Assembly (NCBI GenBank): GCA_903843225.1
Contig: CAIMOX010000038.1
Coordinates: forward strand, 1-64,000
Reading direction: 5' to 3'
Origin: an uncultured Actinomycetes bacterium
Lineage (GTDB): Bacteria; Actinomycetota; Actinomycetes; Nanopelagicales; Nanopelagicaceae
DNA: 64,000 bases
Of this stretch, positions 22,604 through 61,864 are shown piece after piece. The notes under the pieces were generated by a model. It ran no database searches and had not been told where the DNA came from. It worked only from the letters and a program-made list of their open reading frames with translations. A program made the position numbers and the translations under genes. Every line of letters begins with the position of its first letter. Within the stretch, counting starts at the first letter, position 1.

Positions 22604-23911
22604 ATGCCGATAGACGAAACTCCGCGGATCGCCGAACCACTTCTACTTCCCAGAGCTGGGATTCCACCACTTGTTGAAGATGATGCTGGCCTGCGCAATG
22701 TTATTGATCAACTCTCGCGTGGTGAAGGCCCGATCGCAGTTGATGCCGAACGCGCATCAGGCTTTCGTTACAGTCAACGCGCATACCTCATTCAAATCTT
22801 TCGCCGAGGTGGTGGCCTCCATTTGATCGATCCGATCGCGGCAAACAATCTAGCAACTTGGGCTGCACTCGACACCGCCTTCAAGGAATGTGAGTGGATC
22901 ATCCATGCCAGTACTCAAGACCTGCCTTGTCTTCGCGAACTCGGAATCAATCCAACTAAGCTCTTTGATACTGAACTCGGCGGAAGAATTGCTGGATGTG
23001 AACGTGTTGGCCTGGGCGCTCTCACCGAAGCACTTCTCGGGTTGCAATTAGCAAAAGAACACAGTGCAGTCGATTGGTCTATTCGTCCCCTCAAGGATGA
23101 GTGGCTCGCCTATGCCGCACTCGATGTTGACGTCCTCATCGATCTTCGCGATGAGATGGAGAAATTACTCATCGAACGCGGATATCTTGAGTATGCACTC
23201 GAAGATTTTGCTGCGATTTTAATATCTAGCGCGGTCATCCCTGCGGCGAAGCGTGACCCATGGCGCAAAGCAGCCGGGATTCATAAAGTCCGTGATCGAT
23301 TATCTTTAGCCATCATTCGTGATCTTTGGATTGCCCGGGATATCTACGCCCGCACTGTCGATACTGCGCCAGGAAGAATTTTCAATGATGATGCGCTCCT
23401 TGAGATTGCCATCAAACGTCCTACAACAATGGATCTCTTCACAAAAATCATTACCCGTCGTAGTCGTGGAAAAGAACAACCAGTGACGCAGTGGTTTGAT
23501 CTTTATCGGAACACTCTCAATCTTCCCAAGGATCAACTCCCCGAACTTCGTCTCTCACCTGTTGGGCTACCTCCGCAGAAGTTGTGGAAGGATCGCAATC
23601 CGCTCGGGTATGCACGACTGACTCATGCGCGTGCAGCAGTCTTAGAGCGAGCGCACGAACTCTCGATCCCCGCTGAAAATCTCATCTCACCTGACGCAGT
23701 CAGGCAGGCGATGTGGCATAACCCCGCAGATGGCGATGGTCTGAGTTACCTTGAAGAGAAACTTCGTGCAGCAGGTGCCCGCTCGTGGCAGATCTCACTG
23801 ATCGCGCCTTCACTCGTTGGGCCCCTTCATGAGAGTGAGCCCCTACCTCCAGCAGCACCTGAAGTCGACCCTACTGAGCCTGCGGCAGCCGATCAGCCTC
23901 CGGTCGAATAG
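22604..23911 (+). CDS. rnd: HRDC domain-containing ribonuclease D
   Basis: A 435-residue 3'-5' exoribonuclease of the DEDDy type. Exo motifs are visible in order: VDAERASGF (Exo I, D-x-E), HASTQDLPCL (Exo II), and YAALDVDVLIDL (Exo III with Tyr and Asp). Two HRDC-like helical regions follow (about residues 215-300 and 320-395), then a proline/alanine-rich acidic tail. It probably trims tRNA or other structured RNA. It is co-transcribed with the DUF3000 gene. Downstream lies the palindrome before FTR1. Confidence 0.9.
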   Translation: MPIDETPRIAEPLLLPRAGIPPLVEDDAGLRNVIDQLSRGEGPIAVDAERASGFRYSQRAYLIQIFRRGGGLHLIDPIAANNLATWAALDTAFKECEWIIHASTQDLPCLRELGINPTKLFDTELGGRIAGCERVGLGALTEALLGLQLAKEHSAVDWSIRPLKDEWLAYAALDVDVLIDLRDEMEKLLIERGYLEYALEDFAAILISSAVIPAAKRDPWRKAAGIHKVRDRLSLAIIRDLWIARDIYARTVDTAPGRIFNDDALLEIAIKRPTTMDLFTKIITRRSRGKEQPVTQWFDLYRNTLNLPKDQLPELRLSPVGLPPQKLWKDRNPLGYARLTHARAAVLERAHELSIPAENLISPDAVRQAMWHNPADGDGLSYLEEKLRAAGARSWQISLIAPSLVGPLHESEPLPPAAPEVDPTEPAAADQPPVE

Positions 23912-23918
23912 AGGGTAT

Positions 23919-23942
23919 TTACGCAACATTCAGGTTGCGTAA
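23919..23942. promoter_or_regulatory. 24-bp perfect inverted repeat over the FTR1 promoter -35 region
   Basis: Two 9-base arms, TTACGCAAC and GTTGCGTAA, flank a 6-base centre. The right arm covers TTGCGT (23935-23940), which stands 17 bases from the -10 TAGGCT and would be the -35. This is the expected place for a repressor operator of the iron permease gene. It could instead be an rnd terminator, but no T-run follows. Confidence 0.5.
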
Positions 23943-23957
23943 TTCAAAGCCCGACCC

Positions 23958-23963
23958 TAGGCT
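23958..23963 (+). promoter_or_regulatory. -10 hexamer TAGGCT of leaderless promoter for FTR1 gene
   Basis: TAGGCT ends 6 bases before the ATG at 23970. With TTGCGT 17 bases upstream this is the most complete promoter in the window. Confidence 0.65.
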
Positions 23964-23969
23964 TGACCC

Positions 23970-24791
23970 ATGTTGAGCACCTTCCTGATCGCGCTCCGTG
24001 AAGGCCTTGAAGCCTCACTGATCGTCTCGATTCTGATCGCCTACCTCAGCCGCACCGGTCGGGCGAGTTTTGCCCGCTATATCTGGATCGGTGTAGGCGG
24101 CGCAGTGCTCCTGAGCTTTGGTCTAGGCGCGCTCCTCTCCTTTACCTCAGCAAGCCTCTCTACGCGCGGTGAGGCGCTCTTTGCCGGCCTTACCTCCGTC
24201 CTGGCAGTCTCTTTCGTGACAGTTATGGTCTTCTGGATGAAGCGCACCGCTCGAGGGCTAGGACGTGAGCTCCAGTCCCGTGTTGACGATGCCCTTCCCT
24301 TGGGAGGTTTTGCTCTCATATCAGCATCATTCTTCGCTGTAGCGCGTGAAGGCCTAGAGACCTCGCTCTTTATCTACTCCAACTTCAAAGCGGTTGGATC
24401 TCATGCCGGACCAACTCTGGGCCTGATTGTTGGGCTTGCCACATCAGTAACGCTTGGCGCCTTGATCTATCGCAAGACGGTAAAGCTCAACCTAGGCAAA
24501 TTCTTTACCGTGACGGGCTACGGCCTCATCATTGTTGCCGGCGGAGTGCTCTCCCATGCGGTCGCTGAATTTCAAAGTCGAGGTGATCTTCCCGGAGCCA
24601 CATCACTGATCTGGAATCAACAGAACGGAAACGGATTTCTCTGGACGATTATCGATGGCAGCGTTGGTATCGGCGCAGAGATGAGCTACCTACAACTCAC
24701 GACCTGGGCTATTTATCTCGCTGTGGTGATCTCGATCTACCGTCGCCCGGCAAAGCTCTCAGAGCTTGCCCCACTCAGCAAGGTCCAGTAG
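23970..24791 (+). CDS. FTR1 family iron permease
   Basis: A 273-residue membrane permease with about seven helices. It has the two REGLE iron-binding helices of the family: LREGLEASLI (about residues 9-18) and AREGLETSLF (about 127-136). FTR1 proteins import iron, often oxidised by a partner (EfeO/EfeB or a multicopper oxidase); no partner gene is adjacent here, so it may act alone or with unlinked factors. It is a single-gene unit with its own promoter and a palindrome that may mediate metal control. Confidence 0.9.
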   Translation: MLSTFLIALREGLEASLIVSILIAYLSRTGRASFARYIWIGVGGAVLLSFGLGALLSFTSASLSTRGEALFAGLTSVLAVSFVTVMVFWMKRTARGLGRELQSRVDDALPLGGFALISASFFAVAREGLETSLFIYSNFKAVGSHAGPTLGLIVGLATSVTLGALIYRKTVKLNLGKFFTVTGYGLIIVAGGVLSHAVAEFQSRGDLPGATSLIWNQQNGNGFLWTIIDGSVGIGAEMSYLQLTTWAIYLAVVISIYRRPAKLSELAPLSKVQ

Positions 24792-30151: not shown

Positions 30152-32809
30152 TTACTTCATGAGTGATCGTAGGACGTACTGCATGATTCCACCATGACGG
30201 TAATAATCCGCTTCACCCGGCGTATCGATTCGAAGGAGGGCTTGGAAGCTCTTCCCATCTGCCGTTACCGTCACCTGCTTTGGCGCAGGGCCAACGTTGA
30301 GTTCAGTGATGCCTGAAATCTCAAAACTCTCGGTTCCAGTAAGGCCAAGTGATGCCGCGTTCTGACCCGGCAGATATTGAAGTGGAAGCACACCCATACC
30401 GATGAGATTTGAGCGATGGATACGTTCGAAAGATTCAGCGATAACTGCTTTCACTCCAAGGAGTGCAGTTCCCTTCGCAGCCCAGTCGCGTGAAGAACCA
30501 GATCCATATTCCTTGCCAGCAAGAATAACGAGTGGAACTCCGGCAGCTTGGTAATCGGTAGATGCATCGAAGATTGATGATTGCTCACCGTTCTTCAAGA
30601 AGTTACGAGTGAATCCACCCGAAACATCATCAAGAAGGAGATTCTTCAGGCGAATGTTTGCAAAGGTGCCACGGATCATGACCTCATGATTTCCGCGGCG
30701 TGAGCCATATGAGTTGAAATCTCCTCGTTCGATTCCATGCTCAGATAAATATTTACCCGCAGGTGAATCTGCCTTGATATTTCCCGCTGGGGAGATGTGA
30801 TCGGTGGTGATCGAATCTCCAAGTACGGCGAGAACGCGAGCACCTGCAATATTTGTCACAGGCTTTGGTTCGCGCGGCATTCCTTCAAAGTATGGAGGCT
30901 TGCGAACGTAGGTGGATTTCTGATCCCACTCAAAAGTCTTACCTGTCGGTGTCGCCAATGACTTCCAGCGATGATCACCTTCAAAGACGGTGGAGTAGTC
31001 CTTCTTAAACATATCGGATGTGATGACTTCATCCATCACGGCTTGAATCTCTCCGGCAGATGGCCAGATATCTTTCAGGTATACAGCCGCGCCACTCTTA
31101 TCCGTTCCGATTGGATCGCTCTCAAAGTCGTGATCCATTGTTCCGGTAAGCGCATAGGCAACGACTAATGGTGGAGATGCGAGGTAGTTCATCTTTACAT
31201 CAGGACTGATACGACCTTCAAAGTTACGGTTTCCAGAGAGAACCGCTGTGACAGCGAGATCGTTATCGTTTATTGTTTTGCTGATCTCAACTGGAAGTGG
31301 ACCAGAGTTTCCGATACATGTGACGCAACCATAACCCACCAGGTTGAACCCAAGTTCTTCGAGATACGGCGTGAGCCCAGACTTATCAAAGTAATTTGTC
31401 ACAACTTTGGAGCCTGGCGCTAATGAAGTCTTTACCCATGGCTTTGAAACGAGTCCCTTCTCCACTGCCTTCTTGGCAAGGAGAGCTGCACCGATCATTA
31501 CTGATGGATTCGAGGTATTTGTACAGGAGGTGATGGAGGCTATTACTACATCGCCATTCTTTAATTCAGAGCTCTTGCCACCGCGGGTATATGGCACTGC
31601 TGTCGTTGTTGTCTTCTCCGTGATGTATGAAGGAATGATCTTTTCAAAAGATTCTTTCGAATCACGAAGCGAGATTCGATCTTGTGGGCGCTTGGGGCCA
31701 GAGATTGATGGCACAACTGTAGAGAGATCGAGCTCGATCGTCTCGGAGTAGCGAGGAGCTACTGCTGGATCATGCCAGAGTCCATTTGTCTTCGCGTATT
31801 TTTCAACGAGTTCTAGTTGATCATCGCTACGACCAGTGAGCTTCAAGTAATTGAGTGTCTCTTGATCGATCGGGAAGATCGCACAGGTTGAACCATATTC
31901 AGGAGCCATATTTCCGATAGCAGTTCTTGTCGCCATCGAAAGAGATGAGACCCCCGCGCCATAGAACTCAACAAACTTTCCAACAACGCCAAGCTTTCGG
32001 AGCATCTCAGTGATTGTAAGTACCAGATCAGTTGCTGTAGTGCCTACTGGCATATCGCCAGATAATTTGAAGCCAACAACCTTTGGAATCAGCATAGAGA
32101 CAGGCTGTCCGAGGAGAGCTGCTTCAGCTTCAATTCCTCCAACGCCCCAACCGAGAACGCCAAGGCCATTGACCATCGTTGTATGTGAATCAGTTCCAAC
32201 AACCGTGTCAGGATAGGCGCGAAGCTCTCCGTCGACGGAGCGAGTCATAATCACGCGAGCTAAGAATTCTATATTTACCTGGTGAACGATTCCGGTGCCA
32301 GGTGGAACTACTTTGAACTCATCAAAGGCGGTCTGGCCCCAACGTAAGAAGCGATAGCGCTCTTGATTGCGCACGTATTCAATATCGGTGTTCTCTTCGA
32401 AGGCGGTCTTTGTTCCAAAGAGATCGGCAATGACCGAGTGATCAATCACGAGTTCGGCAGGTGCCAGTGGATTAACCTTCGTAGGATCGCCACCGAGATC
32501 GACGATCGCCTCACGCATTGTTGCGAGATCAACAATGCACGGCACACCGGTGAAATCCTGCATAATCACGCGCGCAGGAGTGAACTGAATTTCGGTATCT
32601 GGCTCAGATGATGGATCCCATGAGGCTAGGGCGCGAATCTGATCGGCGGTGATATTTGCACCATCTTCGGTGCGCAGCAGATTCTCCAAAAGGATCTTCA
32701 GGCTGTACGGGAGATCTTTAACCCCATCAAGCCCGGTGATATCAAAAATCTCATAGCTCTTACCTGCAACGGATAGGGCCTTCTTTGCGCCAAACGAGTT
32801 CTTGCTCAT
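30152..32809 (-). CDS. acnA: Aconitate hydratase A
   Basis: An 885-residue TCA-cycle enzyme interconverting citrate and isocitrate. The 4Fe-4S ligands are in [11 protein letters not shown] and [15 protein letters not shown], and the swivel domain carries [16 protein letters not shown] with the substrate-binding serine/arginine. Length and order match bacterial AcnA/IRP1-type proteins. The spacer to downstream dxs is 48 bases, but dxs has its own promoter box, so the two are separate or only partly linked. Leaderless start from TAGGAT-N6-ATG. Confidence 0.95.
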
Positions 32810-32815
32810 GGGCCA

Positions 32816-32821
32816 ATCCTA
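32816..32821 (-). promoter_or_regulatory. -10 hexamer TAGGAT of leaderless promoter for acnA
   Basis: TAGGAT ends 6 bases before the ATG at 32809. Confidence 0.6.
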
Positions 32822-61836: not shown

Positions 61837-61864
61837 GAAAGGGAGCCATCGCTGGCTCCCTTTC
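61837..61864 (-). terminator. Hairpin terminator after the HU gene
   Basis: GAAAGGGAGCC and GGCTCCCTTTC form an 11-bp perfect stem with a 6-base loop, 20 bases past the HU stop. The 3' flank is only moderately T-rich, so efficiency is uncertain. It also lies upstream of the plsC promoter. Confidence 0.6.

Follow-up and report, generated by a model that had tools for sequence, protein, structure and literature searches.

What does a perfect 24-bp palindrome do over the -35 region of an iron permease promoter, and which protein would read it there? The question arises in the genome of an uncultured actinobacterium of the Nanopelagicaceae, which are among the most abundant freshwater bacteria, and the locus lies in a window of 64,000 nucleotides, this being the whole stretch of DNA analyzed. 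In well-studied actinobacteria, the control of iron import is done by DtxR/IdeR; for example, the iron uptake of Mycobacterium tuberculosis is under IdeR. In the genome considered here, the palindrome is very probably the operator for a different protein, SufR, a putative [4Fe-4S] repressor whose gene comes first in the suf operon of this same genome. The parts of the locus are as follows.

23919..23942, no strand: proposed SufR operator, the 24-bp palindrome TTACGCAAC-ATTCAG-GTTGCGTAA, with arms near-invariant and loop variable over 72 efeU upstream regions
23919-23927, 23928-23933 and 23934-23942: the parts of the palindrome, TTACGCAAC, ATTCAG and GTTGCGTAA, in that order
23924-23937: the core of the palindrome, CAAC-N6-GTTG
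23935..23940, + strand: -35-like hexamer TTGCGT, within the right arm, 17 bp from the -10 and a poor match to the consensus
23958..23963, + strand: -10 element TAGGCT, with TANNNT at the matching spacing in 71 of the 72 efeU upstream regions
23970..24791, + strand: efeU, an FTR1/EfeU-family iron permease of 273 aa (PF03239, E 2e-52; NF041756 above cut-off)
22604..23911, + strand: rnd (ribonuclease D-like), the upstream neighbor, which has no part in the proposed mechanism

A sequence-only reading of this locus had described a perfect palindrome overlapping TTGCGT, a 17-bp spacer, TAGGCT, and six bases to the ATG of an FTR1 gene, and its coordinates and letters are all correct. The perfect 9-6-9 inverted repeat is 27 bp upstream of efeU, TAGGCT begins 15 bp past the palindrome, and six bases lead from TAGGCT to the efeU ATG at 23970. 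The FTR1 identity of the open reading frame is borne out by PF03239 and by NF041756 (EfeU), against which the product scores 272.7 bits with a cut-off of 255. A generic sigma-70 scan called no promoter at efeU, where each hexamer matches the consensus at just three of six positions. The efeU promoter is probably a leaderless one, or nearly so.

An inverted repeat alone is weak evidence, and conservation is the real evidence. Perfect 9-6-9 repeats occur three times in the window, compared to zero or one in each of 10 Markov shuffles, and since two of the three lie elsewhere, the palindrome was dropped as stand-alone evidence. One of the other two is within a long open frame (30155-32818), and the other, AAGGGAGCC-ATCGCT-GGCTCCCTT at positions 61839-61862, is terminator-like. 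Allowing up to three mismatches, a search of the window for this specific motif gives a single occurrence, where 0.03 are expected.

The conservation of the site was followed in 72 efeU upstream regions, each from a different family genome. Of the 201 genomes searched, 149 have efeU, and the 72 were chosen as the 30 best efeU matches plus 42 picked across genera. The motif is present with at most two mismatches in all 72 (56 perfect, 15 with one mismatch, and one with two), and so is the CAAC-N6-GTTG core. Identity per alignment column ranges from 0.85 to 1.00 in the arms and from 0.42 to 0.94 in the loop, with a mean of 0.47 in the left flank, and the 72 sites have 33 different loops among them. 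In 71 of the 72 regions, a TANNNT follows the site at a distance of 15 or 16 nt, against a random-position background of about 2%. In the family as a whole, one or more sites within two mismatches are found in 193 of the 201 genomes, a reversed control pattern giving nearly always zero, and the other eight genomes have no site within two mismatches. The repressor-type position that had been suspected at the -35 of this iron gene is therefore a conserved, operator-like one, and conservation upstream of FTR1 in relatives, on which that suspicion had been made to depend, extends to every upstream region in the sample.

The manner in which the arms vary is also informative. None of the 17 arm changes at the efeU sites is compensated in the opposite arm; it is a DNA sequence rather than an RNA stem that is conserved. 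Taken with the near-invariant arms, the varied loops, and the TANNNT spacing, such changes are what a DNA site for a protein shows when it keeps a set position in a promoter. It is extremely improbable that the repeat acts as an RNA hairpin, be it a terminator of rnd or a structure in the efeU leader, even though the RNA strand of the repeat folds well (z -3.4) and 109 of the 115 loci with an efeU tblastn match have rnd immediately before them. There is no run of T, the same site is found at sufR, and rnd is not seen in 35 of the 53 fbpA/Nramp loci that carry the site, some of these being short contigs. The repeat precedes the -10 and is therefore outside the efeU transcript. The concern that the hairpin might only terminate rnd is answered by the missing T run and by the sites that precede sufR and fbpA loci without rnd; these two points, along with the lack of compensation, led to the rejection of both the terminator and the hairpin.

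If the palindrome is a protein site, the next question is which protein binds it. A search of the genome for the motif had been recommended, and it returns two places in 1.35 Mb when up to three mismatches are allowed, one at efeU and the other at sufR. This second site, TTACGCAAC-ACTTCT-GTTGTGAAA, differs from the motif at two of 18 positions, has its CAAC-N6-GTTG core intact, and sits at the start of sufR, between this reverse-strand gene and ctaA (COX15). The suf genes are in the order sufR-sufB-D-C-S-U (L253). In the available excerpts of the respective papers, CAAC-N6-GTTG is reported as the SufR operator of cyanobacteria (PMC8593673, PMC13421787) and, by way of a citing paper, of Streptomyces avermitilis (PMC11995493). 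SufR is proposed as the regulator because the second genomic site is at sufR and because the core equals this published operator. By the same token, the idea of a new metal-responsive operator is not supported, since the core is one already published, and the signal is likely to be the status of Fe-S clusters and not the binding of a metal ion as such.

The GTG start codon of sufR is inside the site (in GTTGTGAAA), and its first letter is the last G of GTTG. In S. avermitilis, the last G of the SufR motif is the transcription start of sufR, according to the part of PMC11995493 available. Since the start codon opens with that G in this genome, the sufR message is probably leaderless here too.

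Across the family, 61 sufR upstream regions were compared, made up of 23 of the 30 loci from the first search (seven shorter ones were dropped) and 38 that were fetched. All but one of them (60 of 61) retain the right arm, GTTGTGAAA, the exception being a contig end. In the left half, the full CAAC-N6-GTTG is found in 37 of the 61 and [AT]CAC-N6-GTTG in 23, with one contig end. The sufR site is looser than the efeU site across the family, and this counts against the SufR reading. Within the same genomes, the 9-bp extended arms are common to the efeU and sufR sites.

The regulator itself is detected in 97 of 99 good-quality genomes of the family. The SufR of this genome matches TIGR02702, the model for cyanobacterial SufR, over nearly the whole model, scoring 60 bits against a cut-off of 178.8. 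This cut-off, which belongs to an equivalog named for cyanobacteria, is not reached by the protein, and SufR homologs from other actinobacteria likewise fall below it (71-85 bits). The protein is claimed here as a putative actinobacterial SufR and not as a member of the TIGR02702 equivalog. Its N-terminal winged helix matches HTH_20 and HTH_5 above cut-off, and its structure is predicted with a pLDDT of 84. A fold search with this model gave weak MarR-type winged-helix matches alone (best E 1.1e-3), and a search of the PDB with the sequence gave no match. The cysteine pattern C-X3-C-X12-C-X27-C is present in 38 of 39 sequences, namely this SufR and its homologs. In the M. tuberculosis SufR (Rv1460), C203, C216, and C244 are essential, as given in the available part of PMC6034842, and the X12 and X27 spacings between them are identical to those found here. 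Carrying these presumed ligand cysteines, the protein is a candidate [4Fe-4S] repressor. The likeness to M. tuberculosis also extends to the regulator gene, which comes first in the suf operon there too. Unlike what is proposed for the Nanopelagicaceae, the reported direct target of Rv1460 is the suf operon.

The site is not limited to efeU. In genomes of the family without efeU, 33 loci were looked at (30 genomes chosen for having a site, plus three further loci), and the site precedes an FbpA-type gene in 29, an Nramp gene in one, and sufR/ctaA in two, with one locus having no assignment; the loci were assigned by reading, and representatives were checked against Pfam and the PDB. The FbpA-type representative matches the ferric-iron binding protein of PDB 7w3w (E 7e-75), and the Nramp representative matches PF01566. 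The FbpA-type ABC protein is non-homologous to EfeU. Most of the sites at efeU-less loci are 27-28 bp before the start codon, which is the geometry seen at efeU. The site follows the iron-import function, not a single gene, and, going by these comparisons, the operator looks to have stayed in place while one transporter was traded for another behind it.

Two further observations concern the surroundings of such sites. A third site in one genome (G074, L390:1501, one mismatch) has no evident iron gene nearby; a small exported-protein-like ORF is 104 bp away, and an ORF that by eye looks like a peptide-type ABC binding protein is 111 bp away. Also, rnd is present in 18 of the 53 fbpA/Nramp loci (L074-L079, L081-L083, L085-L087, L091, L096, L167, L183, L193, and L235), mostly right before the site, with fbpA occupying the slot that efeU has elsewhere.

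A wider scan, with one genome per species and 84,980 species, gave at least 120 exact stretches. Among the 120 listed, 85 precede EfeU and 23 precede FbpA. The remaining 12 of those listed precede FeoA (one), FecCD (one), Peripla_BP_2 (two), and an ABC ATPase (one), or have no assignment (seven); the Peripla_BP_2 proteins are periplasmic binding proteins of the type carrying iron-siderophores. These FeoA, FecCD, Peripla_BP_2, and ABC ATPase loci (L207, L140, L152, L179, and L211) are from Timonella, Demequina, Promicromonosporaceae, and Arthrobacter. In a sample of the class, the family has the motif with at most one mismatch in 40 of its 41 genomes, and it is rare elsewhere (11 of 353). Eight of those 11 are from one genus, and the three of these eight that were inspected adjoin a flavoprotein, not an iron gene; in another of the 11 (G339), the site is 27 bp before an efeU gene. 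In three of the seven stretches with no assignment, which are non-actinobacterial records from unrelated phyla (L139:5780, L196:1517, and L209:5458), the exact motif stands before ORFs that look SRPBCC-like by eye, where perhaps an unrelated regulator uses a similar palindrome. Six other actinobacteria (L266-L271) carry the motif at iron-type (five) or FbpA-type (one) genes, and the full CAAC-N6-GTTG is absent from the 250 bp before their sufR match, so the SufR idea is not yet extendable to these six. Like the looser sufR sites, the low TIGR02702 score, the third site in G074, the rarity of the motif outside the family, the eight family genomes that have no site, and these six actinobacteria weigh against the SufR reading.

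These last cases bear on whether another, uncharacterized regulator binds the site, its likeness to the SufR motif being a matter of convergence. The SufR assignment does rest on sequence comparison, the SRPBCC-like loci suggest that another family may use a similar palindrome, and the sufR site differs in those other actinobacteria whose iron-type genes carry the motif. This explanation is quite unlikely all the same, given the 9-bp arms that the efeU and sufR sites of the same genomes have in common and the functional logic of joining iron uptake to Fe-S assembly. Decidedly improbable, too, is that the genome's single, Nur-like Fur-family protein binds the palindrome and represses efeU on a metal ion. 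The genome has one FUR-family gene, the closest PDB entry to which is 3eyy, which we take to be Nur, the nickel regulator of Streptomyces coelicolor. The Nur box is TGCAA-N5-TTGCA, and the letters of its half-sites are shared with the GCAAC...GTTGC of the palindrome. However, the half-sites are spaced as GCAA-N8-TTGC in 72 of 72 efeU upstream regions and with N5 in none, and a Nur-type Fur box was rejected on this spacing. The same palindrome also marks the start of sufR, a place at which the SufR of S. avermitilis is reported to bind in the literature available in part, and the presence of FUR-family proteins does not discriminate, as they are found in 57 of 61 genomes. Near the genome's own fur gene, no Nur-type box beyond chance was found. 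This gene, the only FUR-family one found in the genome (L276:4719-5129), is just before a YgfZ-like ORF, by eye.

The usual regulators of actinobacterial iron genes were considered as well. The consensus of the DtxR/IdeR box is TTAGGTTAGSCTAACCTAA-like. The palindrome is like such boxes in being a repressor site at an iron-uptake promoter and unlike them in its sequence, and the window has no match within three mismatches of the consensus, in agreement with the initial impression that the motif does not resemble a DtxR/IdeR site. A DtxR/IdeR box was rejected on this difference in sequence, and no DtxR protein was detected in the genome. Among 61 family genomes, DtxR was found in four, all from one genus (g6), which is the only one of 17 genera sampled to have it. 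In all three g6 genomes inspected (L383, L384, and L385), a DtxR-like box, TAGGTTAGGCATACCTAA or TAGGTTAGGCAAGCCTAA, is present between the proposed SufR palindrome and efeU, matching at 15 of 18 defined positions. This contrast, in which DtxR is present and a DtxR-like box lies beside the SufR site, supports the SufR picture. A regulator of the Rrf2 family (IscR/RirA) was also rejected, as no Rrf2 protein was detected in the genome; such proteins are above cut-off in two of the 61 family genomes.

The type of operator is already known, and what looks new is direct control of iron import by SufR. SufR is described as dedicated to the suf locus in the available part of a review (PMC8593673), and the only targets given for cyanobacterial SufR in the available part of another paper are sufBCDS and ftrC (PMC13421787). 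Compared to the SufR operators of Synechocystis sufBCDS/sufR and S. avermitilis sufRBDCSU, as described in the available excerpts, the site here has the same CAAC-N6-GTTG core, position in the promoter, and kind of regulator, and the regulator gene heads the suf operon, as it does in S. avermitilis. The differences are that the best site here fronts an iron importer, not suf, and that conservation extends over longer arms (9 bp). In the portions available of the literature on SufR, efeU, iron uptake, and iron regulation in Nanopelagicales, control of iron import by SufR was not found to be reported, and no paper there joined SufR to efeU. The proposed control would work like that of RirA in Rhizobium and its relatives, which is described in the available part of PMC6748827 as a [4Fe-4S] repressor of iron uptake that loses its cluster when iron is low, bringing about derepression. 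Unlike SufR, RirA is a member of the Rrf2 family, an unrelated protein, and has an IRO box.

From what SufR does in other bacteria, a holo-SufR dimer over the -35 would be expected to block RNA polymerase. While Fe-S clusters are plentiful, holo-SufR would keep efeU repressed. Iron shortage, oxidants, or NO would lead to the loss of the cluster, and the apo-SufR would leave the DNA, with efeU and the suf operon being induced together. SufR would in this way couple iron import to iron-sulfur demand in the Nanopelagicaceae.

We also consider it fairly probable, if with more reserve, that the role of main iron-import repressor in this family has passed from DtxR/IdeR to SufR. A SufR operator-promoter cassette would have stayed fixed while the transporters behind it (EfeU, FbpA-type ABC, and Nramp) were swapped, uptake would be set by Fe-S status and not by free iron, and g6 would have a DtxR-like box added. 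SufR acting directly on iron import, as it appears to do, would be a RirA-like, cluster-sensing iron regulator for actinobacteria, drawn from another protein family. It would provide a simple account of iron regulation in streamlined freshwater actinobacteria without detectable DtxR, and a testable case of transporter exchange behind one conserved operator.
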